Notes: generated from the sequence alone by a model not told the origin. A stretch of DNA of 64,000 nt from Candidatus Poribacteria bacterium (GCA_022822085.1 JAJECK010000136.1:1-64000); one strand, 5' to 3'; positions 397 to 36,772 are shown, counted from the first letter of the stretch. Numbers and translations: made by a program.

Positions 397-3267
397 TTGG
401 GATTTGTTCATCTACACAACCACAGCGAATATAGCATGCTTGATAGCGCATGCCGCATATCTGATATGATTCAGTGGGCAATTGAAAATAACGCGCCGGC
501 TGTCGCACTCACCGACCACGGTAATATGTTCGGCGCATGGGAATTTTACACCACCGCACAAAAGGCAGGTGTCCCACCTATCATCGGCTGTGAGGTATAT
601 GTCGCATCCGGAGATAGAAGAACTCACGGATTAGGACAAGATAATCCGGACCATCTAACACTTCTCGCAGAAAATGCAACAGGCTATCGAAACCTGCTCA
701 AATTGGTATCGCTCGGTTACATAGACGGGTTCCATAACAAACCGCGTATTGACATGGAAATTCTGCGCGAATACCGTGAGGGTATCATCGCTTTGACAGG
801 GTGTATCCAAGGACAGGTACCGCGACTTCTCTACGAAAATAGGCGTGAGGAAGGTATCCAAAGTTTCAAAACACTGATTGATATAGTGGGATCCTGCAAC
901 CTATATGTTGAAATCCAAAATCACTACATTGGCAAAGAACAAAAAGTATACCCGATGATGGTCCATTTAGCGAAAGAATACAATATCCCTATCGTTGGGA
1001 CAAACAACTGCCACTATCTCCGAAAGTCCGACCATCGCGCACACGATGTGCTCCGCTGTATCCAAACAAAGACCACCGTCAAAGACCAGCATCGAACACG
1101 GCTTGATAATCATTATTACTTTAAGAACCTGAACGAAATGCAGGAAACATTTAAGAATTACCCGCCTGAAGCCATCAGTAACACTTATAAGATTGCTAAA
1201 AGGTGTTCTAATTTCAAACTGGATTACGGCAACCTAGTTCTGCCGAAATACGAAGTCCCTGAAGGACACACAAATGATAGCTACCTAAAGGAACTTTGCT
1301 ATCAAGGTTTGCATGAAAAATTTGGTCAAAAACTTCCACCAGATGTTCAGAAACAGCTGGATTACGAACTTGATATAATTCGGAAGACAGGTTATGCCGG
1401 CTATTTTCTGGTAGTGTGGGACTACGTCAACTACGCAAATAAACAAGGATATCCACTTTCAGCACGCGGCTCTGCCGCCAGCAGTTTGGCTCTTTATGCA
1501 CTCGGCGTCATTAACTTCAACCCGATGGATTATGACTGCATGTTTGAACGGTTCTTGAACACCGAACGCGTTAGTCCGCCTGACATTGATATTGATTTTT
1601 CTGATAAAGCTCGTGATCACGTCATAACGTATCTCGTCGATAAATACGGTCAAGATTCTGTCGGCAAAGTTGCCACTTTTTCTACTTTAGGACCGAAGGC
1701 AGCTATCACTGATGTCGGACGTGCACTGGAAGTTCCTCTTAAAAATGTGAGAAAATTGACAAGACTCATTCCGGGACTCGCAAAAACCACACTTGAAGAT
1801 GTATTAGCACTTATTCCAGAATTTCGGAAAATAGCGCAGCTCCCTGAAAACAGAGAATTAATAGACATTAGTAAAGCAATCGTAGGATTGAAAAGGCACG
1901 TCTCGTGCCACGCTTCTGCAGTCGTCGTTTCAAGCGGCCCTCTCACCGATTATGTCCCACTGTTCAAGGATAAACACGGTCAAGTCGCAACCCAATTTGA
2001 AGGCAAAACTGTAGAAGATGTCGGTATTGTCAAATTTGATTCCCTCGGATTACGAAGTCTCACCAAAACCGACGATTGTGTTCGGATGATAAAGGAAAAT
2101 CGCGGTAAAGACATCAAACTGACAGAAATTCCGTTTGACGATGAAAAAACCTATTCGCTTGTTAGCAAAGGCTTGATTGCCGGTTTATTTCAATTGGAAA
2201 CTTCTCCAGGTATGTATCGCGTTGTTACGCAGCTCAGACCAGAGAACTTTGAGGATTTCACCGCAATTCCCGCAATCTACCGTCCCGGTCCATTAGAAAG
2301 CGGAACGACACAGCAGTTCATCGCACGGAAAAACGGCTTGCAAAAAGTGGAATATATACACCCGTCACTTAAAAATGCTCTTAAAAACACTTACGGTCTA
2401 TGTGTCTATCAGGAACAGGTGATGCAGATCGCCCGCGATATGGCAGGTTTCACGCTCGGTGAAGCGGATGTGCTGCGCAACGCAATGGGTAAGCGTAACA
2501 AGGGACTTCTAAAAGCACAACGGCAAAAATTCATCGCAGGTGCATCTACAAACGGCATATCCAAAGCAGAGGCAGAAAAGGTGTTTGATATATTGGAACC
2601 TTTTGGCGGATACGCATTCAATAAGTCGCATACTGTGGCTTACTCTATCGTGACTTATCGGATGGCATACCTAAAAACACATTTTCCGCACGAATTTATC
2701 GCAGCAATCATGACGGGAGAAGCAGACGATGCATCAAAAATTATCTGCTACCGAGAAGAGTCCAAAAATCTCGCAGACTTTTTAGGTGTGCAAATCAACC
2801 TACTGCCACCAGACATAAACAAAAGCAGCAAGTTTTTCACGGTGGAAGGTGATAATATCTACTTCGGTCTTATCGCCGTAAAACACATCGGCAACAGAGC
2901 CGTAGATGCCATCTTAGAAGCAAGGGAACAGAAAGGGCCGTTTACATCGCTACAAGACTTCTGCACACGCGTGAATACGAGAGTCGTCAATAAACGGACA
3001 ATCCAGAGTCTGATTTTGTGCGGTGCATTCGATTCACTTGAAGCGCATCGTGCACCGCTCGTCGCAAACTTACAAACCATTCTGAAAGCCGCAAAAATCG
3101 AAAAAGCAGAACGCGAACGGGGACAGTTGAGTCTCTTCAAGGATGCTGCGATGATATACGCCATAAATCCAGCACACATGAATATCCCAGACTATGAACC
3201 TTGTGAGAGATTTAAGATGGAAAAGGAACTCCTCGGTTTTAGATTGTGTGTCAAGAATCTCGGTTAA
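397..3267 (+). CDS. dnaE: DNA polymerase III alpha subunit (DnaE), TTG start, short C-terminus
   Basis: N-terminal PHP motif HLHNHSEYSMLD; PPDIDIDFSD; SCHASAVVVS; FNKSHTVAYSIVTY; ends at MEKELLGF. Confidence 0.93.
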   Translation: MGFVHLHNHSEYSMLDSACRISDMIQWAIENNAPAVALTDHGNMFGAWEFYTTAQKAGVPPIIGCEVYVASGDRRTHGLGQDNPDHLTLLAENATGYRNLLKLVSLGYIDGFHNKPRIDMEILREYREGIIALTGCIQGQVPRLLYENRREEGIQSFKTLIDIVGSCNLYVEIQNHYIGKEQKVYPMMVHLAKEYNIPIVGTNNCHYLRKSDHRAHDVLRCIQTKTTVKDQHRTRLDNHYYFKNLNEMQETFKNYPPEAISNTYKIAKRCSNFKLDYGNLVLPKYEVPEGHTNDSYLKELCYQGLHEKFGQKLPPDVQKQLDYELDIIRKTGYAGYFLVVWDYVNYANKQGYPLSARGSAASSLALYALGVINFNPMDYDCMFERFLNTERVSPPDIDIDFSDKARDHVITYLVDKYGQDSVGKVATFSTLGPKAAITDVGRALEVPLKNVRKLTRLIPGLAKTTLEDVLALIPEFRKIAQLPENRELIDISKAIVGLKRHVSCHASAVVVSSGPLTDYVPLFKDKHGQVATQFEGKTVEDVGIVKFDSLGLRSLTKTDDCVRMIKENRGKDIKLTEIPFDDEKTYSLVSKGLIAGLFQLETSPGMYRVVTQLRPENFEDFTAIPAIYRPGPLESGTTQQFIARKNGLQKVEYIHPSLKNALKNTYGLCVYQEQVMQIARDMAGFTLGEADVLRNAMGKRNKGLLKAQRQKFIAGASTNGISKAEAEKVFDILEPFGGYAFNKSHTVAYSIVTYRMAYLKTHFPHEFIAAIMTGEADDASKIICYREESKNLADFLGVQINLLPPDINKSSKFFTVEGDNIYFGLIAVKHIGNRAVDAILEAREQKGPFTSLQDFCTRVNTRVVNKRTIQSLILCGAFDSLEAHRAPLVANLQTILKAAKIEKAERERGQLSLFKDAAMIYAINPAHMNIPDYEPCERFKMEKELLGFRLCVKNLG

Positions 3268-3644
3268 GTGTAAATTTAAGAAGATAAATCCATTCTGATA
3301 GTTCTTCAGTCTCGTCCGGATGATATGTTTATAGAAAACGAATGTCTCCGTCCGTGGGGTAATCTCTTTGAACTGACACCGATGATCTCTTTCCTATTAG
3401 CGGGGTAACGCAAAGACTCATGGATATATTCATAAAACGTCTCGAAAGTGAAGCACCAGACCAGTGCCCGAATCTGAGTCACAAGTAACCGAAAAAACCC
3501 TCTAAACATAGACGGTACAAGGATCGGGTAATTCCAAAAAGCCGAAAAATAGGGCACAATAGGGCACAATAGGGCACGATGCCATCCCACAAAAAATTTA
3601 GATGTTTGTCCAAAACTGGACACACCCGTGGATTGATTCTCAAG

Positions 3645-3673
3645 TTGTAATTTTCATGTATGTATGATATAAT
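3645..3673 (+). promoter_or_regulatory. candidate promoter upstream of ThuA-like gene
   Basis: TTGTAA, 17 nt spacer, TATAAT. Confidence 0.45.
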
Positions 3674-3701
3674 TCCTATATAATTCATTAGGAGGCTAAA
3701 A

Positions 3702-4334
3702 ATGGCAAAGATTAATACACTTGTTTTCGCTGGTGGCGCAATTCATAATTGGAAAGGCTGCAGTGAAGAGATAGTGAAATCACTTTCACAACGAGACGAA
3801 TTTGAACTGACGACTGTTGAAGACGATTTAGATGCATTGGTATCCCCAAACTTAGATCCTTATGATCTCATCGTTTTCTATTATACGGTAGGTGAAATTT
3901 CTGACGAGCAGAAAAATGGCTTGTTAAACTACGTCGCTTCAGGTAAAGGATATGTCGGTATACATTCTGCTGCAGATTCATTCCGAGGTTGTCCTGAATA
4001 CCGTTCTATGGTGGGTGGGTACTTTACGACACATCCACGTTACCGAGATTATCAGGTTAGCATTGTAGATAATGAACATGAAATAACCCAAGGTCTTGAC
4101 GAATTTGTCGTGAAAGATGAACAATACATTCTTGATTACGATCCACGCAATCATGTGCTCGCTTCTGCTTTGTGGAAAGGTGAAGCAATGCCAGTAGCAT
4201 GGACAAAAAATTGGGGTGAAGGTAAGGTATTCTACCTTGCACTTGGACACGACCCTGCGGCATGTCAACATGAGATGTTTAGTACGCTACTGCAGCGTGG
4301 TGCTTTATGGGCAGGTTCAAACGGCAATGAATAA
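3702..4334 (+). CDS. ThuA-like domain protein
   Basis: FAGGAIHNWKGC..., GYVGIHSAADSF, ALGHDPAAC typical of the ThuA/glutamine-amidotransferase-like family. Confidence 0.8.
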   Translation: MAKINTLVFAGGAIHNWKGCSEEIVKSLSQRDEFELTTVEDDLDALVSPNLDPYDLIVFYYTVGEISDEQKNGLLNYVASGKGYVGIHSAADSFRGCPEYRSMVGGYFTTHPRYRDYQVSIVDNEHEITQGLDEFVVKDEQYILDYDPRNHVLASALWKGEAMPVAWTKNWGEGKVFYLALGHDPAACQHEMFSTLLQRGALWAGSNGNE

Positions 4335-4441
4335 CTGATTTTTTCTGATATAGTGTTCTTGTATATTCAGAAACAATTTGCAAACTTTCACGATTCCTAT
4401 AAAACATTTTATGGGCGGATTTATATATCTGCCCTTATATT

Positions 4442-5083
4442 TTGGAATCAGAACAAATGAAACAGAAAATAACAGATATACAACCCCAACTAAAAAACGC
4501 CTCACACCTACAGATTTATTTGGATGACAAGCCAAGTGTAGTTGTTCCGCTAATGCTTGTTGAGAATTTAGGGTTACGAATCGGTTTAGAAATTGAAGCT
4601 GAAGTTATAGAGAAACTGATTGAAGCAGATGAAATGATGCGCGCAAAGAATAATGCGCTTGAAATGCTACGTGAAGAGATTTATAGCAAAATACAAATGA
4701 CGCGACACCTTGATAAAGAAGGATTCAGCGAAAATACCATTGAAACAATTGTCACAGAATTAATACAATCAGGACACATACGAGACCGACAGTTCGCAGA
4801 AAAATGGGTACAACGTCGTCAAAAGTCAAATCCACGAGGACGTACGGTGTTAAAACAGGAACTCATTGAAAAAGGTGTTGACAGAGAAACAGCAGAACAA
4901 GTTGTAAATAAAATAAATACGAAGGATGAGGAAAGTTTAGCATTCCAAATAGCACTGAAACAAGCAAAGAAATATAAACGTCTACCTCATCAAGTTGCCC
5001 AACGAAGATTACACGGTTTTTTATCTCGACGTGGGTACGATTCTGATCTGATTATGAAGATTATGCATCAAGTATTTTGCTAA
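4442..5083 (+). CDS. recX: Regulatory protein RecX
   Basis: RecX three-helix repeats (HLDKEGFSENTIETIVTELIQSGHIRDRQFAEKWVQRR, PRGRTVLKQELIEKGV); located just upstream of alaS. Confidence 0.85.
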   Translation: MESEQMKQKITDIQPQLKNASHLQIYLDDKPSVVVPLMLVENLGLRIGLEIEAEVIEKLIEADEMMRAKNNALEMLREEIYSKIQMTRHLDKEGFSENTIETIVTELIQSGHIRDRQFAEKWVQRRQKSNPRGRTVLKQELIEKGVDRETAEQVVNKINTKDEESLAFQIALKQAKKYKRLPHQVAQRRLHGFLSRRGYDSDLIMKIMHQVFC

Positions 5084-5284
5084 AACAGAACAGACCTTCT
5101 TTTGTTCTTGACTTCTTAATCAAGAATAAACTATAATTAGATTTACTTTATTGTCGCTATTTATTCAACAATTTGACCAAAATGTGAAATTTTCAGTTGA
5201 ATTTTGAGGTCCCTTCGCGTTTACAAAGTGCGGCTACTGTTTGTATATATTCCAGTTATAATTGGGTATGGGAGATATGTCAAT

Positions 5285-7948
5285 ATGACATCAGATGAAA
5301 TCAGAGCAAGTTACTTAGATTTTTTCAGGGAAAAGGGGCATACTATCGTTCCGAGTGCTTCTTTAATCCCCGTCGATGACCCAACACTGTTATTTACAAA
5401 TGCAGGAATGAACCAATTCAAAGATGTATTTCTCGGAATTGGACAACGTGAATATACGCGGGCAGTGGACACTCAAAAGTGCCTACGTGTTAGTGGTAAA
5501 CACAATGACCTTGAAGAAGTAGGACACTCACCAAGTCATCACACCTTTTTTGAGATGCTCGGTAACTGGTCATTTGGAGATTACTATAAACAGGAAGCCA
5601 TCGCGTATGCATGGGAATTAGTGACGGAGTTGTGGAAAATACCCCAAGAGTTATTATGGGCAACTGTGTATAAAGACGATGATGATGCAGAAAAACTTTG
5701 GCTGCAGGAGACCGACCTTCCGCTGGAACGTATTCGTCGGTGTGACAAGGACAACTTTTGGGAAATGGGTGAGACCGGCCCCTGTGGTCCGTGTAGTGAA
5801 CTTTTCGTTGATTTGGGTGTAGAAGCATTTCCAGAAACCGCAAATGACCCAGATGCTGGTCCTAACACAAGTGACAGATTTCTTGAATTTTGGAATCTTG
5901 TGTTTATTCAATACAATCGAGACCAAAGTGGTACACTTGAACCGCTCCCCGCCACACATGTAGACACTGGAATGGGGTTTGAGAGAATCACCTCTATTTT
6001 ACAAGGTGTTGACTCAAACTACAAAACAGACCTTTTTATCCCACTCCTGGATACAATTTCTGATATGACAGGTATAGATTATGCTGAAGACATTAATGGA
6101 CTTCCACATAGGGTAATTGCCGATCATATCCGTTGTTTAACATTCACGATTGGTGACGGTGTAATGCCATCTAACGATGGACGGGGTTATGTGATTCGAA
6201 GGATTTTACGGCGCGCAGTACTTTATGGCAAAAAACTGGGAATGAATGAACCTTTCATCTACCGTCTGGTCGACAAAGTTTGTGATTTAATGGGTAATGT
6301 ATTTCCAGATGTCTTACCCCGAAAAGAATTTATTACGCGCACCATTCAAGCTGAGGAAAATCGTTTCCATCAAACCCTTGCCCGTGGATTAGAGATTCTT
6401 GAACAGTCAATTGACACTCTAAAAGATGATGGAAAAACCGAACTTGACGGTGAACGGGCATTTGAATTGTATGATACCTTCGGTTTCCCATTGGATCTGA
6501 CACAACTCCTGACGCAGGAACGCGGGTTTTCAGTAGACGAAGTTGGGTTCGAAGATAACATGGCGAAACAACGGGAACGGGGACGGGCAGCATGGCAAGC
6601 AACAGGTAGTGGTGCAAATGACGATGAAATCTCACTATATGCTGAAGTGTTAAAAGAGACGGGTAGCACAGAATTTGTCGGATACATGGACAGCACTATT
6701 GACTCAGAAATTGTAGCATTGATCGCTGGATCAGAATCAGTTGCGCGCGCAAAACAAGATGATGAGGTATCGGTTTTACTCAAGCAAACACCATTTTATG
6801 GTGAATCAGGTGGTCAAGTTGGTGATATAGGATTGCTTGAGAGTTCAGATGCAAAACTCAAAGTACTCGATACGAGCAAACCTTCACCCGACCTAATTGT
6901 ACATAAATGTAAAGTCCTTGAAGGTGAAATTACCCCATTTACCAAAGTTAAGGCTCAGATTGACATTGACAGACGGAACGCAATTGCGATAAGCCATACC
7001 GCTACACATCTGCTTCACAGTGGATTAAGAAATATTCTGGGAACACATGTAGCACAAGCCGGTTCACTTGTTCAGTCCGGTAGATTACGTTTTGATTTTA
7101 ATCATTATGAGGCAGTTTCATCTGAACAACTCCGCGAGATTGAAACATACATAAACGAAAAAGTACGTAGTAATGACGCAATTGAAATCAATGAAATGTC
7201 ATTGGATAAAGCCAAAGAAAGAGGCGCGTTAGCATTCTTTGGTGACAAATATGGTGATATTGTCCGTGTTGTGCAAGCGGGAGAATATAGCGTTGAGTTA
7301 TGCGGTGGGACTCATGTTGATGCTACTGGTGAACTCGGTTATGTCAAATTGGTGAGTGAGAGTAGTATAGCTGCAGGTGTACGACGCGTGGAAGCACTCA
7401 CAGGGAGTGTTGCCCTCACAACCAATCAGGAAGATGAAGCATTTTTATCAGAAGTTTCTAATCTCCTAAAGACACCTAAAGCAGGTTTATTAGATAGAAT
7501 TCAACAACTCCTTCAAGAACAGCGTGAGTTGGAACAGCAAGTACAACAGTTGAAAAGTCAGAACGCGCTCTCAAATATTGATACTATGGTTGATGGAGTA
7601 ACAATTGTAGATGATGTCAAGGTAGTCGCTACAAGGTTAGAAAAAACCGATAGAGATAGTCTACGACAGATGGTAGACGAACTAAAAACTCGATTGGAAT
7701 CCGGTGTTGTTGCACTTGTCTCGGTGTCTGGAGATGATGCCGCCTTTATCGTTGGGGTTACATCTGATCTTGTGAAAAATCGCGGTTTGAACGCTGGAAA
7801 ACTCATACAAGAAATCACAAAAATCGCAGATGGACGCGGTGGCGGTCGTCCTGAATTGGCACAAGGTGGGGCAAAAAATCTTGATAAAGTTGATGAAGCC
7901 ATTGCAGCAACTACCAATATTATAGAGAACCAACTAAAATTTGAATGA
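5285..7948 (+). CDS. alaS: Alanyl-tRNA synthetase (start reassigned to MTSDEIRASYLDFF)
   Basis: FTNAGMNQFKDVFLG, TGMGFERI, HTATHLLHSGLR, CGGTHV motifs. Confidence 0.97.
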   Translation: MTSDEIRASYLDFFREKGHTIVPSASLIPVDDPTLLFTNAGMNQFKDVFLGIGQREYTRAVDTQKCLRVSGKHNDLEEVGHSPSHHTFFEMLGNWSFGDYYKQEAIAYAWELVTELWKIPQELLWATVYKDDDDAEKLWLQETDLPLERIRRCDKDNFWEMGETGPCGPCSELFVDLGVEAFPETANDPDAGPNTSDRFLEFWNLVFIQYNRDQSGTLEPLPATHVDTGMGFERITSILQGVDSNYKTDLFIPLLDTISDMTGIDYAEDINGLPHRVIADHIRCLTFTIGDGVMPSNDGRGYVIRRILRRAVLYGKKLGMNEPFIYRLVDKVCDLMGNVFPDVLPRKEFITRTIQAEENRFHQTLARGLEILEQSIDTLKDDGKTELDGERAFELYDTFGFPLDLTQLLTQERGFSVDEVGFEDNMAKQRERGRAAWQATGSGANDDEISLYAEVLKETGSTEFVGYMDSTIDSEIVALIAGSESVARAKQDDEVSVLLKQTPFYGESGGQVGDIGLLESSDAKLKVLDTSKPSPDLIVHKCKVLEGEITPFTKVKAQIDIDRRNAIAISHTATHLLHSGLRNILGTHVAQAGSLVQSGRLRFDFNHYEAVSSEQLREIETYINEKVRSNDAIEINEMSLDKAKERGALAFFGDKYGDIVRVVQAGEYSVELCGGTHVDATGELGYVKLVSESSIAAGVRRVEALTGSVALTTNQEDEAFLSEVSNLLKTPKAGLLDRIQQLLQEQRELEQQVQQLKSQNALSNIDTMVDGVTIVDDVKVVATRLEKTDRDSLRQMVDELKTRLESGVVALVSVSGDDAAFIVGVTSDLVKNRGLNAGKLIQEITKIADGRGGGRPELAQGGAKNLDKVDEAIAATTNIIENQLKFE

Positions 7949-8018
7949 AGTTTTTCTGAAAATGGATTATTTATGCTACCATGTTGATAACGAAATAGCA
8001 TAAGAGAGGACAATACGA

Positions 8019-8669
8019 ATGGACCCAAATCTAATTCTTACTATTTTCTGGCAATGTAGTCTTGGCATCGCTCTACTTGCATTAACTGCTCTATTTATTT
8101 ATCTATGTGCTACATTAGGAAGTTTGAGAAAATCTTTGAATAGCATACAGAATACACTTAACTCTACAGAAAATCTTGTAAATCAAGAAGTTGGAATCCT
8201 CATTACTGATGTCACACAGACAGTGAAAGAGATCAATAAAGAACTACCACAACTACTACAAAACCTTAACGGTGTGACTGCATCTATACAACAAATCAGT
8301 GAAAATGAGATACAACCTACTTTACACAATATCCAAGAGATGACAGAACAGTTAAATCAAGCAGTGCAAAAACTTGAATCACTTGTTAATTCTGTCTCAA
8401 CATTTTCTGGACAAACAATTGAACAAGCAGAGTACTTTCGCAATCAGATCGCTGTTTCACTCGCAGATGTCATCAGTATGTGGCACGGGGTGAAGGCAGG
8501 TTGGGAGAAATTTTATAGACCCTCCAAACCTGATGGAACACCAAACTCTTCTGACGAAACACCAAACTCTGATGACGGTCAAGGTGAAGTACAGCCGGAA
8601 AGCGAACCTGAAGAATTGCAAACGGAGGCAGACCCAGCGGAATCTCAAGATACACAATCAGAAAATTGA
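8019..8669 (+). CDS. DUF948-like membrane-anchored coiled-coil protein
   Basis: N-terminal TM then long coiled coil, acidic repetitive tail. Confidence 0.5.
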   Translation: MDPNLILTIFWQCSLGIALLALTALFIYLCATLGSLRKSLNSIQNTLNSTENLVNQEVGILITDVTQTVKEINKELPQLLQNLNGVTASIQQISENEIQPTLHNIQEMTEQLNQAVQKLESLVNSVSTFSGQTIEQAEYFRNQIAVSLADVISMWHGVKAGWEKFYRPSKPDGTPNSSDETPNSDDGQGEVQPESEPEELQTEADPAESQDTQSEN

Positions 8670-8804
8670 AAGAATTATATGTTAATCATCAACTAAATGT
8701 AAATGTTTTACAAAAACAAACGTTGTGTACAACAAAATATCATTCCATACTAATCAATCTGAAATGATTAGTCTCTTATTAATACAGATAGAAAGGATAA
8801 ACTC

Positions 8805-9215
8805 ATGAGTAATGATGGACGGAATAATGGCTTGACAATGATTTTTGCCTTCTTCACCGGTTTTCTGACAGGTGCAGTGCTAAGTCTACTTTATGCCCCA
8901 GCACCAGGAAAAGAAACTCGACAGAAAATCCGTGATACCTCTATTCAGGCAAAAGATAAGACCCTTGAAATAGCTCAACAAGCATCTGAAACTGCGAAAG
9001 ATAATGTACAACAAATTGTGGATCAAGGGAAAGAAAGTGTACAAGGACTTGTTGAAGTAGGTAAAGAACGTATCAAAGACGCAACGAATCAAGTGAAATC
9101 TGCTGTCGAAACTGGAAAAAAAGCTTCATCTGAAGTTCGCAGCAAAATCACTGAGACGATTCCAGGACTTGCTGACAACAAGAAATCAGATAAGCAGGAA
9201 TCTGATGACGCGTAA
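8805..9215 (+). CDS. YtxH domain-containing protein
   Basis: FFTGFLTGAVLSLLYAPAPGKETRQKIRD motif. Confidence 0.8.
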   Translation: MSNDGRNNGLTMIFAFFTGFLTGAVLSLLYAPAPGKETRQKIRDTSIQAKDKTLEIAQQASETAKDNVQQIVDQGKESVQGLVEVGKERIKDATNQVKSAVETGKKASSEVRSKITETIPGLADNKKSDKQESDDA

Positions 9216-9268
9216 TCTCAAATTTAATATTGAGAAAGCGATAGACTCAGAAACCGGATACTTTTCTG

Positions 9269-9380
9269 ATACCATTTCTATTTAAAAACTGTCATAAGGC
9301 TTCCTTAAAGTCCCACTGATAAGGGGGATTTAGGGGATTCTTCCAATTGGCAATGAGACATTATTATTTAGAAATGGTAT
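9269..9380. mobile_element. 112 bp MITE-like element with 12 bp perfect TIR ATACCATTTCTA
   Basis: ATACCATTTCTA at 9269-9280 and TAGAAATGGTAT at 9369-9380; the same terminal sequence follows the IS630 remnant at 54513-54528. Confidence 0.65.
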
Positions 9381-9429
9381 GACATTAGCAGTATTCCTTA
9401 ATGTAACCCCTGACATAATTTCAACATAT

Positions 9430-10182
9430 ATGGAAGTTGAAAAGTTAAAAAACCTCCTTGAGAAGGTCAAAAGTGGAGAGATAGAGGTGAGTGATGCACT
9501 TCAATCTCTCCGAATACTCCCATTTGAAGACCTCGGCTTTTCCAAAATTGACCACCACAGGCAGCTTCGGACAGGTTTCCCTGAAGTTATATTTTGTGAA
9601 GGTAAGACAGACAAACAGGTCGCTCAAATCAGTGAACGAATCTTAAATGCCGGACATCCGCTGCTTGCTACCCGTGCCACACCGTCAATGTATGAAGAAG
9701 TAAAAGCCATACAATCTGACGCTCGTTATAATGAACTTGGACGGACAATTTCTGTCCTGCAAACCACCCATGAAGGTAAAGAAGGTATCCTTGTCGTATC
9801 TGCAGGCACCTCAGACTTGCCAGTTGCAGAAGAAGCCGCAGAAACTGCATATATGATGGGCAACTCTCCTGAACGCCTTTACGATGTCGGGGTCGCAGGA
9901 TTACATAGACTTATTAGTAATCACGAAAAACTTCTCCAAGCTCGTGTCATCATAGTAGCTGCTGGTATGGAAGGGGCATTACCGAGTGTCGTTGGGGGAT
10001 TGGTTGACACACCGGTAATTGCTGTGCCTACCAGTGTGGGATACGGGGCAAGTTTCGGTGGACTTGCAGCATTACTCGGTATGCTAAATAGTTGTGCTTC
10101 CGGAGTAACCGTCGTTAACATTGATAATGGGTTCGGGGCAGGATATAGTGCTTCGCTAATCAATAGTTTGTCCTATACATAA
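9430..10182 (+). CDS. larB: Nickel pincer cofactor biosynthesis protein LarB (AIR carboxylase-like)
   Basis: [66 protein letters not shown]. Confidence 0.88.
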
Positions 10183-32199: not shown

Positions 32200-32997
32200 A
32201 TGTCAACAAGGTTAACCTTATTTACAATTCTCGGATTATATATGCTTTTTCTTACTATTTCTGTAGCAACCGCCCAATTTCCTGAAGATGGGGTTGTGGG
32301 ATATTGGTCATTTGATGAAGGCACAATCAATGGAAAAAATGTTAAGGATGTTTTAGGTGGAAACGACGGTGAACTTGAAGGAGCTCCAAAACATGTTAAG
32401 GGTAAAGTGGGCAAAGCACTTGAATTTGATGGTCAAAATTTTGTACATATTGCAGGGTCAAAAACCTTAGATGTCAATGGTTCAGAAGCGATGACCGTTG
32501 CTGCTTGGATAAATGGTGATAGTGACAGTCCTGTGGTAGGTGTTGTTGCTGGATGCTGCGGGACCATTGTTGCACAGCGCGACGCAGATAGTTGGGCAAT
32601 TCGATTTGATGGAAGAAATCCTGGTGGTACAGAATTAGAATTTATTATCAATGCAGGAGGCTGGCAAGGTGATGGTGGCTTCGGTATACCTGTATATCCT
32701 AAAGGTGAATGGCATCACATTGTTGGAATCGTTGATGGAAACAAAAAATATATTTACGGTGATGGTAAACTATTGAAAGAGGATAACTTTAACGGTCCAA
32801 TGCAAGCAAAAAGCACTGAACATGAGATTGGTAATGCACTTGATGGAGGATTTGTGGGATTAATTGATGAAGTTGTTATTTACAATAGGGCACTTTCTGC
32901 CAATGAGGTCCAGATGCTATATAGAGCAGAAGGACTCCCAATCGAACCTGGTGGGAAACTTGCAACACGCTGGGGTAATATCAAAAAATCGTATTAA
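32200..32997 (+). CDS. Secreted LamG domain protein
   Basis: Signal peptide; GVVGYWSFDEGTI, AMTVAAWINGD, GLIDEVVIYNRALSANEV; C-terminus GKLATRWGNIKKSY. Confidence 0.85.
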   Translation: MSTRLTLFTILGLYMLFLTISVATAQFPEDGVVGYWSFDEGTINGKNVKDVLGGNDGELEGAPKHVKGKVGKALEFDGQNFVHIAGSKTLDVNGSEAMTVAAWINGDSDSPVVGVVAGCCGTIVAQRDADSWAIRFDGRNPGGTELEFIINAGGWQGDGGFGIPVYPKGEWHHIVGIVDGNKKYIYGDGKLLKEDNFNGPMQAKSTEHEIGNALDGGFVGLIDEVVIYNRALSANEVQMLYRAEGLPIEPGGKLATRWGNIKKSY

Positions 32998-33279
32998 TAC
33001 TCTACCAGTTATACGTTGGTAGAATATAGGTTTCTACCAATGTATAACAAACACAATACTTAACTAAGGGGTGTGCATAAATAACTGCAATGTCAGAAAT
33101 GCGCTTAAAGGTAGTAGGCACACTCCGTGTGCCGTAACTAAAGTGGATGATGCCAGCGTCGTACACGACTACAAACGCACTTGGAGAAATGAAGCAGCTC
33201 CTGAAGTGCCGTCTTATCTGTGTTGATTCACAAATATTTATTCACACCCTCACTTAACATAAGAGAAAACATGTTCTTA

Positions 33280-34098
33280 AATAAACACGTTTTCATCACA
33301 ATTATAATAGGTATTATGTTCTTCTTCGGTTCGAATTCGTCTGCACAAGCACCAAAAGGCGATCTAATCGGATATTGGTCACTGGATGCTCCGTTATTTG
33401 ACGAAAATACCGAAACAGATATCCTCGGTAGACCTTGGACGATGGACGAAGTTGGCAATATATTCACAATATTACGTGGAAATCCTGAAGTTGTCCCCGG
33501 TAAAGTTAGAAAAGCATTTAAGTTTAATGGCGCAAATGCAGTACACCTATCACACGCACAATGGTTAGATTTCAATGGAGTCAATGAGATGAGTGTTGCA
33601 GCATGGATCAAACCTACAAGTGCTAAACCGATCAGAATCGGATTACACAATCATCCTTGCTGTGGCACAATTGTTGGACAACGCGATGCAGGAAGTTGGG
33701 TAATACGGTATGATAGTAGAAATGTAGGCAAAGAGATTAATTTTAGCGTTCAACCCGGATGGCAGGGACATAACACGATCGGTGTCCGCAGCTTTGTAAC
33801 AAATACTTGGCACCATGTAGTGGGTGTCGTTGATAATGACCAATTACTGTTTTATGTTGACGGTAAATTAGAAGATCAAGCACCTTACGAAGGTCCAATG
33901 GAGAGGAATGGTTTAACTGCAGAAATCGGTGGTTCAGTGTCACATGGAGGATTTATAGGTGTCATTGACGAAGTATACCTATACAAAAAAGCCTTATCCT
34001 CAGCAGAAGTCCAGCAAGTTTATAATGCAAAAGGTCTATCTGTAAAACTCCAAGGCAAACTTGCTACACGATGGGGTAAAATTAAAATGCTCCATTAA
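33280..34098 (+). CDS. Secreted LamG domain protein (start approximate)
   Basis: Signal peptide; LIGYWSLD, EMSVAAWIKP, GVIDEVYLYKKALSSAEV; C-terminus GKLATRWGKIKMLH. Confidence 0.82.
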   Translation, partial: NKHVFITIIIGIMFFFGSNSSAQAPKGDLIGYWSLDAPLFDENTETDILGRPWTMDEVGNIFTILRGNPEVVPGKVRKAFKFNGANAVHLSHAQWLDFNGVNEMSVAAWIKPTSAKPIRIGLHNHPCCGTIVGQRDAGSWVIRYDSRNVGKEINFSVQPGWQGHNTIGVRSFVTNTWHHVVGVVDNDQLLFYVDGKLEDQAPYEGPMERNGLTAEIGGSVSHGGFIGVIDEVYLYKKALSSAEVQQVYNAKGLSVKLQGKLATRWGKIKMLH

Positions 34099-34166
34099 GA
34101 CCATTTATCTGACACAACTATATAGATAGTTGTGTCAGGGCTCAAAAACACAATGACATAAATTGT

Positions 34167-34214
34167 AAAAGAGCATATTCACTAAGGTAAAACCTTAGAA
34201 TATGCTCTTTTTCT
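34167..34214. terminator. Bidirectional intrinsic terminator between convergent LamG genes
   Basis: AAAGAGCATATTC-A-CTAAGGT AAA ACCTTAG-AATATGCTCTTTTTCTT. Confidence 0.8.
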
Positions 34215-34241
34215 TATTAGTTATCTATGTCCAAACACACC

Positions 34242-35030
34242 TTAATAGCGTGCCTTAACGTTACCCCAAGTGGTAGTCATTTTACCTTCAGCTTGAACAG
34301 CCGTTAAGGTAGTTCCAAGACCATCATTCATAAGTGACTTGATGTCAGCTTGTTCTAATGCAACACTGAAAATAGCAACATCGTCAATGAGTGCATTTCC
34401 CAATCTGCCATCACAACAACTATCTCTGCCGATAAATACAGGACCCGTATCAGCATCAAGCGGTGTCTTATTTATATCCATTTCGCTTGCAACTTCGGCA
34501 TCAATATATATCATCCATTTTCCTGATGCACTGTCAAAAGTTGTGGTATACATATGCCATTGGGTTATATTATCTGGTCCAGTTGACATATCGTTCCAAC
34601 CACCAGGTTTATTCCAACATCCTCCATTGCATAATGCCCAAGCTACAACTTTTGTATTTTGATTAGGGTGCACAACAAATGCATTCCGCTTTTCTACAAA
34701 CCAGCCATGTTGATTCCAAGTCTCTGTATTGCTTTTTACCCATATTGAAATTGTAATGGCATCACGTGGATTCTCATGACCTGGCACTTCGACATACGTA
34801 CTTCCATCTAATGCGAGTGCCATGCCAAATGGACCATCTTCCCACTTAGGATTGCCCAGTATAGAGCCATTTAACTCGTTCCCTGATGAATCTCCCGCAA
34901 CTTCACCGTTACCTTCTTCAAACATCCAGGCACCGACAACTGTCTCTGGATCAATCGCAGCATCAATCGAGATCACAAGATAAGCAAGACAAAAACAAAC
35001 AACTATTGACAATACTGTACAGAGTTTCAT
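34242..35030 (-). CDS. Secreted LamG domain protein
   Basis: Signal peptide; VVGAWMFEEGNGEVAGDSSGN, ITISIWVKS, LIDDVAIFSVALEQADI; C-terminus GKMTTTWGNVKARY. Confidence 0.87.
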   Translation of the reverse strand: MKLCTVLSIVVCFCLAYLVISIDAAIDPETVVGAWMFEEGNGEVAGDSSGNELNGSILGNPKWEDGPFGMALALDGSTYVEVPGHENPRDAITISIWVKSNTETWNQHGWFVEKRNAFVVHPNQNTKVVAWALCNGGCWNKPGGWNDMSTGPDNITQWHMYTTTFDSASGKWMIYIDAEVASEMDINKTPLDADTGPVFIGRDSCCDGRLGNALIDDVAIFSVALEQADIKSLMNDGLGTTLTAVQAEGKMTTTWGNVKARY

Positions 35031-35229
35031 GAAAATAATCCTCCAATTTAAAGAAAGAAATTGTAATTAAATAAGTGTACTGAATGCAATAAATTTAGTA
35101 AATTTTGAATAATTCAAATACTATAATATGTAGAAAATAATAGATAGTGTAAATTATTCCAAGATATAGAAATAAAATGAACCATTTAATTTAGTAATAA
35201 AATCTTTAGTTATATTAAGATATAAACAA

Positions 35230-36021
35230 CTAATACCGCGTTTTAACGTTCCCCCATGTGGTTGTCATTTTGCCTTCAACATCTACATCAAGGACTGTGC
35301 CTTCAAGTCCATTTTTCATAAGCGACTTGATATCTGCTTCCTCTAATGCGACATTGAAAATGGCAACTTCGTCAACAATAGCGTTTCCAAATCTACCAGC
35401 ACAACACGTATCATTGCCTATAAAAACAGGACCAGCATCAGCATCCAATGGGGTTTTGTTAATTACCATTTCACTTGCAACCTCGGCATCAATGTAAATG
35501 AACCATTCTCCTGTAGCACTGTCGAATGTTGTCGTATACATGTGCCATTTGGTAATATCATCTGGACCAGTCGATTTATCATTCCAACCACCAGGTTTGT
35601 TCCAACATCCACCATTACATATTGCCCATGCAACATTTTTTGAATTTTGGTTAGGATGCAGAACAAAAGCATTTCGCTTTTCTACAAACCAACCGTGCTG
35701 GTTCCAAGTAGGTGTATTGCTCTTGACCCATATTGAGACTGTTATTTCTTCTTGCGGGTTAGCATGGCCAGGAACTTCAACATAACCAGTCGCACCATCA
35801 AATTCAAGTCCTTTACCAAACTGACCATCCACCCACTTAGTATTTCCTTTCAAAGCACCATCTAAACCATTACCGGAGGAATCTTCCGCTACTTTACCAT
35901 TACCCTCATCAAACAACCAGACACCTACCAGCGTTTCTGGGTCAAATGCAGCTTCACTTGAAAATATTAGTATTACAAACATAAAACACGCGATCATTGA
36001 TAGTGAAAGACCAAATTTCAT
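35230..36021 (-). CDS. Secreted LamG domain protein, close paralog of 34242-35030
   Basis: LVGVWLFDEGNGKVAEDSSGN, ITVSIWVKS, IVDEVAIFNVALEEADI; C-terminus GKMTTTWGNVKTRY. Confidence 0.87.
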   Translation of the reverse strand: MKFGLSLSMIACFMFVILIFSSEAAFDPETLVGVWLFDEGNGKVAEDSSGNGLDGALKGNTKWVDGQFGKGLEFDGATGYVEVPGHANPQEEITVSIWVKSNTPTWNQHGWFVEKRNAFVLHPNQNSKNVAWAICNGGCWNKPGGWNDKSTGPDDITKWHMYTTTFDSATGEWFIYIDAEVASEMVINKTPLDADAGPVFIGNDTCCAGRFGNAIVDEVAIFNVALEEADIKSLMKNGLEGTVLDVDVEGKMTTTWGNVKTRY

Positions 36022-36772
36022 CAAAATTACCTCCATTTATAATTTTATTAATAATATTACATTAGACATTTTACCGATTTAATTCCGGCACTCTGTTACG
36101 AACAGCACGCATCACGCAATGCTGAATGTAACAACAAAAACCCGCGACGATCCAAAATGGACGTGCGGGCACAGCAGCAGTAGAGCTACTAAGGTTTTCA
36201 AAGTTGTTTTGTTGTCTTGTGTTGTTATATTTAAAGGTGACGTGCGGGGGGGGGGGACTCAAAACTGGTGTTAAAACAAAACTATCAAGCAGGGCATAAG
36301 CCCAATCTTCGCGCAGACAATAGATATCTGAAACGTTTATCTCTAAATGATGATTCGTTTGTCGGTTTTTCATTGTCCCAAAAATTTCAAGTCCAAACCC
36401 TAAAATCCGTGATAGCATAATTTCTTATTCACCCACTCGCAAATTTTATTATGACCTTCAAAATGTAACAATGTCAATCTCTTTCTGAAAACGAGTATGT
36501 AGACATTTTGTTATTATTTGTTATTTACCATATCATCTGTTTTTTTTTTTTGTCCGAGGGCTTTGTCAATCCGAAAAATCCGCGTTCTCTGCAATAATTC
36601 GCGCTTCAGACAATCCAAATTATACTAAACTGCCATTTTTTTGTCAATATTTTAGTTAGAGTCGGATGTATAAAGTTATTGTCACCATTCTTTTAGAAAC
36701 GGTATAACATAATTGACAGTGAATTCTATGTGTTTTTCTACCAGTTGCATAAATCATACCTTTGAAAAATCA

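Follow-up and report, generated by a model that had tools for sequence, protein, structure and literature searches.

A conserved C-terminal tag without a transmembrane helix on exported proteins throughout Candidatus Poribacteria

A C-terminal tag of about 18 residues is present throughout the phylum Candidatus Poribacteria, where it ends secreted proteins of many unrelated kinds. In our judgement it is, on balance, a portable sorting or anchoring tag that lacks a transmembrane (TM) helix and occupies the mature C-terminus of exported proteins. We give only an even chance to the broader proposal that such a tag system serves some 100 exported proteins per genome across the phylum, operates in parallel to the type IX secretion system (T9SS), and has also arrived in another lineage, which is labelled Pseudomonadota. 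The window, i.e., the whole stretch of 64,000 nucleotides that was analysed, is contig 95 of a Candidatus Poribacteria genome of 5.63 Mb in 158 contigs, referred to below as the host genome.

Four secreted LamG proteins in the window, two encoded on each strand, bear the tails that the original prediction had quoted for them, and all four are found where it had placed them (Table 1). The Pfam model Laminin_G_3 matches each of the four ORFs with E-values from 1e-18 to 4e-23. Protein 4 shares 72% identity with protein 3, and proteins 1 and 3 are about 33% identical. The Met at 33271 is a likelier start of protein 2 than the GTG. Each of the four proteins, protein 4 included, has a hydrophobic N-terminal segment of Sec type. 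In the four proteins, the LamG domain matches (PF13385) stop 27-31 residues short of the C-terminus. In an AlphaFold2 model of protein 3 (mean pLDDT 88.7), the LamG blocks are mostly above 90 and the tag is a loose helix with pLDDT values of 53-65. In the PDB, this model matches lectin-like domains of the jelly-roll type, among them a GH43 accessory domain and binding domains of clostridial toxins, and this modelled likeness is one of shared fold only. The conserved unit is longer than the motif originally proposed, GK[LM]xTxWGx[IV]K, and reads VxPxxKLxTxW[GA]x[LI]K.

Table 1 Tagged LamG proteins of the window, their C-terminal tags, and T9SS component genes of Poribacteria
Feature	Location	Strand	Details
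Secreted LamG protein 1	32200..32997	+	265 aa; N-terminal signal peptide (hydrophobic segment); Laminin_G_3 4.3e-21
C-terminal tag of protein 1, PIEPGGKLATRWGNIKKSY	32938..32994	+	profile 32.4 bits
Secreted LamG protein 2	33220..34098	+	292 aa from GTG; hydrophobic N-terminus; Laminin_G_3 3.6e-23
C-terminal tag of protein 2, SVKLQGKLATRWGKIKMLH	34039..34095	+	profile 28.4 bits
Secreted LamG protein 3	34242..35030	-	262 aa; hydrophobic N-terminus; Laminin_G_3 8.2e-20
C-terminal tag of protein 3, AVQAEGKMTTTWGNVKARY	34245..34301	-	profile 33.3 bits; low-confidence helix beyond LamG fold
Secreted LamG protein 4	35230..36036	-	268 aa from first ATG; second Met at 36021; Laminin_G_3 1.1e-18
C-terminal tag of protein 4, DVDVEGKMTTTWGNVKTRY	35233..35289	-	profile 32.2 bits
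SprA-like translocon, PorU-like C25 peptidases, PorV-family barrel	L363:4611-11096; L366:2044-3057, 3111-9614; L364:1843-8340; L365:1060-6306		

The tail is not confined to the window, and over 100 tagged proteins are found in the genome as a whole. Its consensus is xVxPxxK-L-x-T-x-W-G-x-[LI]-K, usually followed by 2-3 residues more. The DNA pattern TxWGx(hydrophobic)K gave 104 genome matches compared to 6 for the reversed control. A profile of 19 columns, built from 47 tails, gave 131 matches in the host genome at E<=0.1 and at least 105 at E<=0.01, which puts the number of tagged ORFs at about 105-131. We used 114 profile-matching ORFs from 88 regions of the host genome as a detailed sample. 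The tail is terminal in 113 of them and, where WG is present, has its W[GAS] 4-13 residues before the stop. The 17 sampled ORFs that are WA/WS variants or partial profile matches are terminal as well. The single non-terminal tail stands 94 residues from the end, immediately before a T9SS CTD. Of 82 tails, 80 have a valine five residues ahead of the K of VxPxxK, although no filter required it. The median net charge of the last 16 residues of tagged proteins is +3, and 2-3 residues follow the conserved K in 70 of 112 tag-only proteins. Tagged proteins are short, with a median of 271 residues, and CTD proteins are long, with a median of 889. Synonymous codons are all used at the conserved positions (for the second T: ACA 26, ACT 18, ACG 22, ACC 8). 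Since the codons vary freely, selection acts on the peptide, and a DNA-level repeat or mobile element is ruled out. A chance origin of the tail is likewise ruled out by the reversed-pattern control together with the outgroup genomes described below.

The bodies that carry the tail fall into about 19 unrelated clusters among the 114 ORFs. Pfam assigns LamG to 60 and TolB/PD40-like propellers to 14, and the other assigned bodies, a few each, are NPCBM, CBM9, 3-keto-disaccharide hydrolase, F5/8 type C, RhaB_D2, HmuY, LDL-receptor class B, and FG-GAP/UnbV. Among tails partly selected on TxWGxxK, identity over 15 residues is 55.9% for non-homologous bodies and 57.7% for homologous bodies, compared to 6.7% in the 15 residues upstream of the tail. 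Because of this partial selection, the unselected valine and a sample of LamG ORFs selected by body are better evidence. In the latter sample, obtained by a LamG protein query that itself bore the tail, 49 of 51 short LamG ORFs have a terminal tail; one of the remaining two has the variant VEAKDKLTTIWALQKK and the other is seemingly disrupted. A hydrophobic Sec-like N-terminal segment is present in 105 of the 114 tagged ORFs. As predicted from the four window proteins in distinction to PEP-CTERM and LPXTG signals, a TM helix is lacking: none of the 114 exceeds a hydropathy of 1.6 over any 17 residues within the last 45. The same C-terminal peptide on unrelated secreted proteins of one genome is what generally marks a sorting tag, and this is what we observed; the original prediction had proposed to look for it.

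The original prediction had also allowed for the motif being only part of the LamG fold, as its final beta strand. That the tail is simply such a last strand, or a loop, of this fold might be supposed from the 60 tagged LamG proteins. We regard this as next to inconceivable, since the LamG domain is complete ahead of the tag, which lies outside it as a low-confidence helix in the model, and tagged proteins without LamG belong to unrelated folds or match no known domain; the non-LamG bodies rule the explanation out. Encapsulin and microcompartment cargo peptides are short and C-terminal, so that the tag matches them in length and place. Microcompartments were moreover once proposed for Poribacteria, as discussed in PMC3909097. 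That the tag is a cargo-loading peptide of either kind is nevertheless very improbable, as the Sec-type N-termini, and the outer-membrane secretion CTD that some of these proteins also have, imply that tagged proteins leave the cytoplasm. A cytoplasmic cargo peptide is accordingly disfavoured by the signal peptides.

In order to assess the phylogenetic extent of the tail, a profile search of related genomes was performed, as had been proposed. The tail is present in all 85 Poribacteria genomes, with 14 to at least 106 tails per genome, and the matches of a pattern scan of genome contigs are nearly all from Candidatus Poribacteria. The tail is absent in 74 of the 76 genomes around the sponge MAG G085 (labelled Pseudomonadota), and these 74 therefore serve also as a negative control; only G085 and G087 match. 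In these two genomes the tags end at least 12 ORFs belonging to at least two unrelated families (tagged loci L412, L413, L414, and L415 in G085, and L408-L411 and L416 in G087). The first family is paralogous and trypsin-like by eye, with no Pfam match in the five members tested. The second, also assigned by eye, has a lipoprotein-like N-terminus and an HExxH-type motif followed by ankyrin-like repeats. We found no likeness of the tagged bodies of G085 and G087 to poribacterial tagged bodies. The Pseudomonadota label of this lineage is taken from the database label and from neighbours such as Lon, NifS, and DppA. As for the scattered matches, L121, at first a stray match, has the support of another genome, in which a contig measures 2.84 Mb. 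L150 lies on a 3.8 kb contig of a Deltaproteobacteria MAG, where a frame of 28 residues bears the tag, and L183 is a tagged ORF on a short contig binned as a Thermoprotei archaeon MAG; both are probably mis-binned poribacterial DNA. In one further genome, G050, the tails have shifted to SVDPxGKAxxxW[GA]xLKxR on several bodies together (L378, L385, L391, L397, and L403; a small sample). Within this small sample, such coordinated drift is as expected of a shared reader.

The relationship of the tag to T9SS requires closer consideration. Kamke et al. (2014) noted TIGR04183 on poribacterial WD40 proteins and did not report structural T9SS genes (PMC3909097). The host genome has 51 TIGR04183 (classical CTD) matches. 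A search of the host genome for SprA with PF14349 gave nothing at the E 0.001 threshold. A weak SprA_N (PF14349) match to an ORF of 2,150-2,200 residues was obtained in 17 of 21 relatives, and the SprA of genome G010 matches TIGR04189 with an E-value of 1.9e-43, under the model's cut-off. Long C25 peptidases matching PorU models occur in 21 of 21 genomes at 2-3 per genome, with NF033707 E-values as low as 8.7e-125. Next to one of these PorU-like C25 genes lies a gene for a PorV-family barrel. PorU and the PorV family are present in the host genome itself. T9SS genes were found alongside the tag wherever tested in Poribacteria and, since T9SS is invariant across the phylum, phyletic profiling is unable to link it with the tag.

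The tag stands immediately ahead of a CTD in 51 of 83 genomes, in few proteins and on about five body types (FG-GAP/UnbV, WD40, Fn3-like, BNR-like, and others, some assigned by eye). In these proteins a fixed spacing of 2-3 residues separates the conserved K from the CTD start, so that tag-only proteins end where the CTD would begin. The arrangement applies to 1 of the 51 CTDs of the host genome, and no tag was found before 20 other CTDs that were inspected; being rare, it indicates that the tag is no usual part of T9SS cargo. FG-GAP/UnbV proteins retain the tag and a complete T9SS CTD in many genomes (L256:8133-10085; orthologues among L329-L353). In a model of one tag+CTD protein, based on a shallow alignment, the tag is disordered (pLDDT 23-33) between the body and the folded CTD. 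The PorU of Bacteroidota cuts at such a stretch beside the CTD (PMC11969387). The bodies of seven tagged proteins have homologues in CTD proteins, and one long LamG ORF that was read ends in a T9SS CTD where short LamG ORFs end in the tag. At L370:48-7386, two CTD genes, one of them with a LamG domain, adjoin a tagged WD40 gene, so that both signals occur in one gene cluster.

These relations invite the reading that the tag is a minimal T9SS signal, i.e., an extremely short CTD that is read by PorV/SprA and sends small proteins through the poribacterial T9SS. We consider this unlikely, although it deserves real weight. Poribacteria have the requisite SprA (below cut-off), PorU-like C25 peptidases, and PorV-family barrel; the tag and the CTD, which are found on homologous bodies, almost exclude each other. 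In Bacteroidota, short CTDs with some 40-55 residues are functional, and the last 22 residues of HBP35 are needed for GFP secretion and attachment (PMC11969387). However, the CTD motifs B, D, and E are all missing from the tag, which has neither GxY nor a basic-hydrophobic last strand, and tag and CTD are conserved jointly across about 50 genomes, in which a second export signal would be redundant. In roughly 0.5 Mb examined of G085 and G087, moreover, we found no CTD and no SprA, PorV-family, or PorU homologue beside their tags, which for this partial sample is a hint of independence from T9SS.

A functionless vestige, either a linker stub after CTD loss or a sequence hitch-hiking via duplication or 3'-end shuffling, would agree with tag-only proteins stopping at the CTD start point of tag+CTD proteins and with tagged genes often being tandem paralogues. 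We find this quite improbable given a peptide that is strongly conserved phylum-wide while synonymous change is free, and conserved equally in homologous and non-homologous bodies. It is also opposed by the lack of tags at the 20 other CTDs and of any CTD-like peptide in the 450 nt downstream of 296 tag-only genes, and the latter rules out readthrough or frameshift into a hidden CTD.

Terminal position, unrelated bodies, and the lack of a TM helix support the original prediction of a sorting, anchoring, or processing tag, a function that we infer from these features. Under this reading of the tail as a portable tag, tagged proteins would be exported by Sec and their signal peptide removed. The last 18 or so residues could then be free to dock to a conserved factor of the envelope, a putative trans-acting reader, which would retain or attach the protein at the cell surface or the outer membrane, its presumed destination. 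The tag would act after export and, where a CTD is present, after CTD removal; in tag+CTD proteins it would sit exactly at the CTD cut site, and both classes would share the same end peptide. To speak of a mature C-terminus here presupposes a PorU cut beside the CTD, as in Bacteroidota. Attachment may be covalent, e.g., by a PorU paralogue, or by binding. PorU paralogues are candidate readers on the grounds that they are conserved, resemble transpeptidases, and act at the corresponding site. That the tag is kept before the CTD in about 50 genomes argues for a role of the tag that the CTD does not fill.

One could instead take the tag for a quality-control, stability, or degradation signal, e.g., the handle by which a chaperone or tail-specific protease of the periplasm grasps a protein. 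Its extreme C-terminal position, its shortness, and the lack of a fold in the models fit such a handle. Tail-specific proteases, however, usually favour non-polar last residues, and the end of the tail is basic. Nearly all members of abundant families are tagged and selection preserves the tag, and a degron on about 100 exported proteins would be unusual; this explanation is therefore improbable.

Poribacteria are an uncultured, mostly sponge-dwelling phylum and are among the dominant sponge symbionts, so that the decoration of their surface bears on life with the host. The tag offers a sequence handle on a large share of poribacterial exported proteins, and raises the testable question of which factor recognises a C-terminal signal devoid of both a TM helix and a folded CTD. 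In addition, SprA, PorU, and the PorV family are evidenced here in Poribacteria, having not been found in the single-cell genomes of 2014 (PMC3909097).

In order to compare the tag to known C-terminal signals, the 114 tagged proteins were scanned with Pfam and NCBIfam. No model for the tail was found in either, and no CTERM model in NCBIfam is common to the tails, with one weak match each to SVAGG and TIGR04131; known families of these libraries are thereby rejected as the identity of the tail. TIGR04183 and PF18962 match only the ORF with the additional CTD. No poribacterial tag of this kind is described in the open-access literature that we searched. C-terminal sorting signals are known as a class, and it is the TM-less, unfolded version of about 18 residues with this motif that is absent from the libraries and papers searched. 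PEP-CTERM/exosortase, GlyGly-CTERM/rhombosortase, and LPXTG/sortase resemble the tag in having a short C-terminal signature and a basic end, and in these systems many targets are served by one processing enzyme; they have a TM helix after the signature, whereas the tag has none. A TM helix is also included in the MYXO-CTERM tag, which with its myxosortase is similar in being a phylum-wide C-terminal tag on many secreted proteins. MYXO-CTERM was first recognised by sequence, occurs on dozens of secreted proteins per genome phylum-wide, and is tripartite with an invariant Cys (PMC11980579); the poribacterial tag has neither the Cys nor the TM segment. The T9SS type B CTD (TIGR04131), also a C-terminal signal, is anchored by binding an outer-membrane barrel (PMC9143113) and is a model for non-covalent retention, although it is a longer folded domain to which we found no convincing sequence similarity of the tag. 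The T9SS type A CTD (TIGR04183), like the short CTDs of Prevotella intermedia, is also C-terminal and borne by Sec-exported proteins; the type A CTD occurs in the same genomes as the tag, on homologous bodies and near tagged genes, and the two can adjoin. The type A CTD is folded and about 70-80 residues long (40-55 when short), and its motifs B, D, and E are defined for long and short CTDs (PMC11969387). By comparison, the tag has about 18 residues and a consensus free of B, D (GxY), and E, and it can stand before a full CTD.
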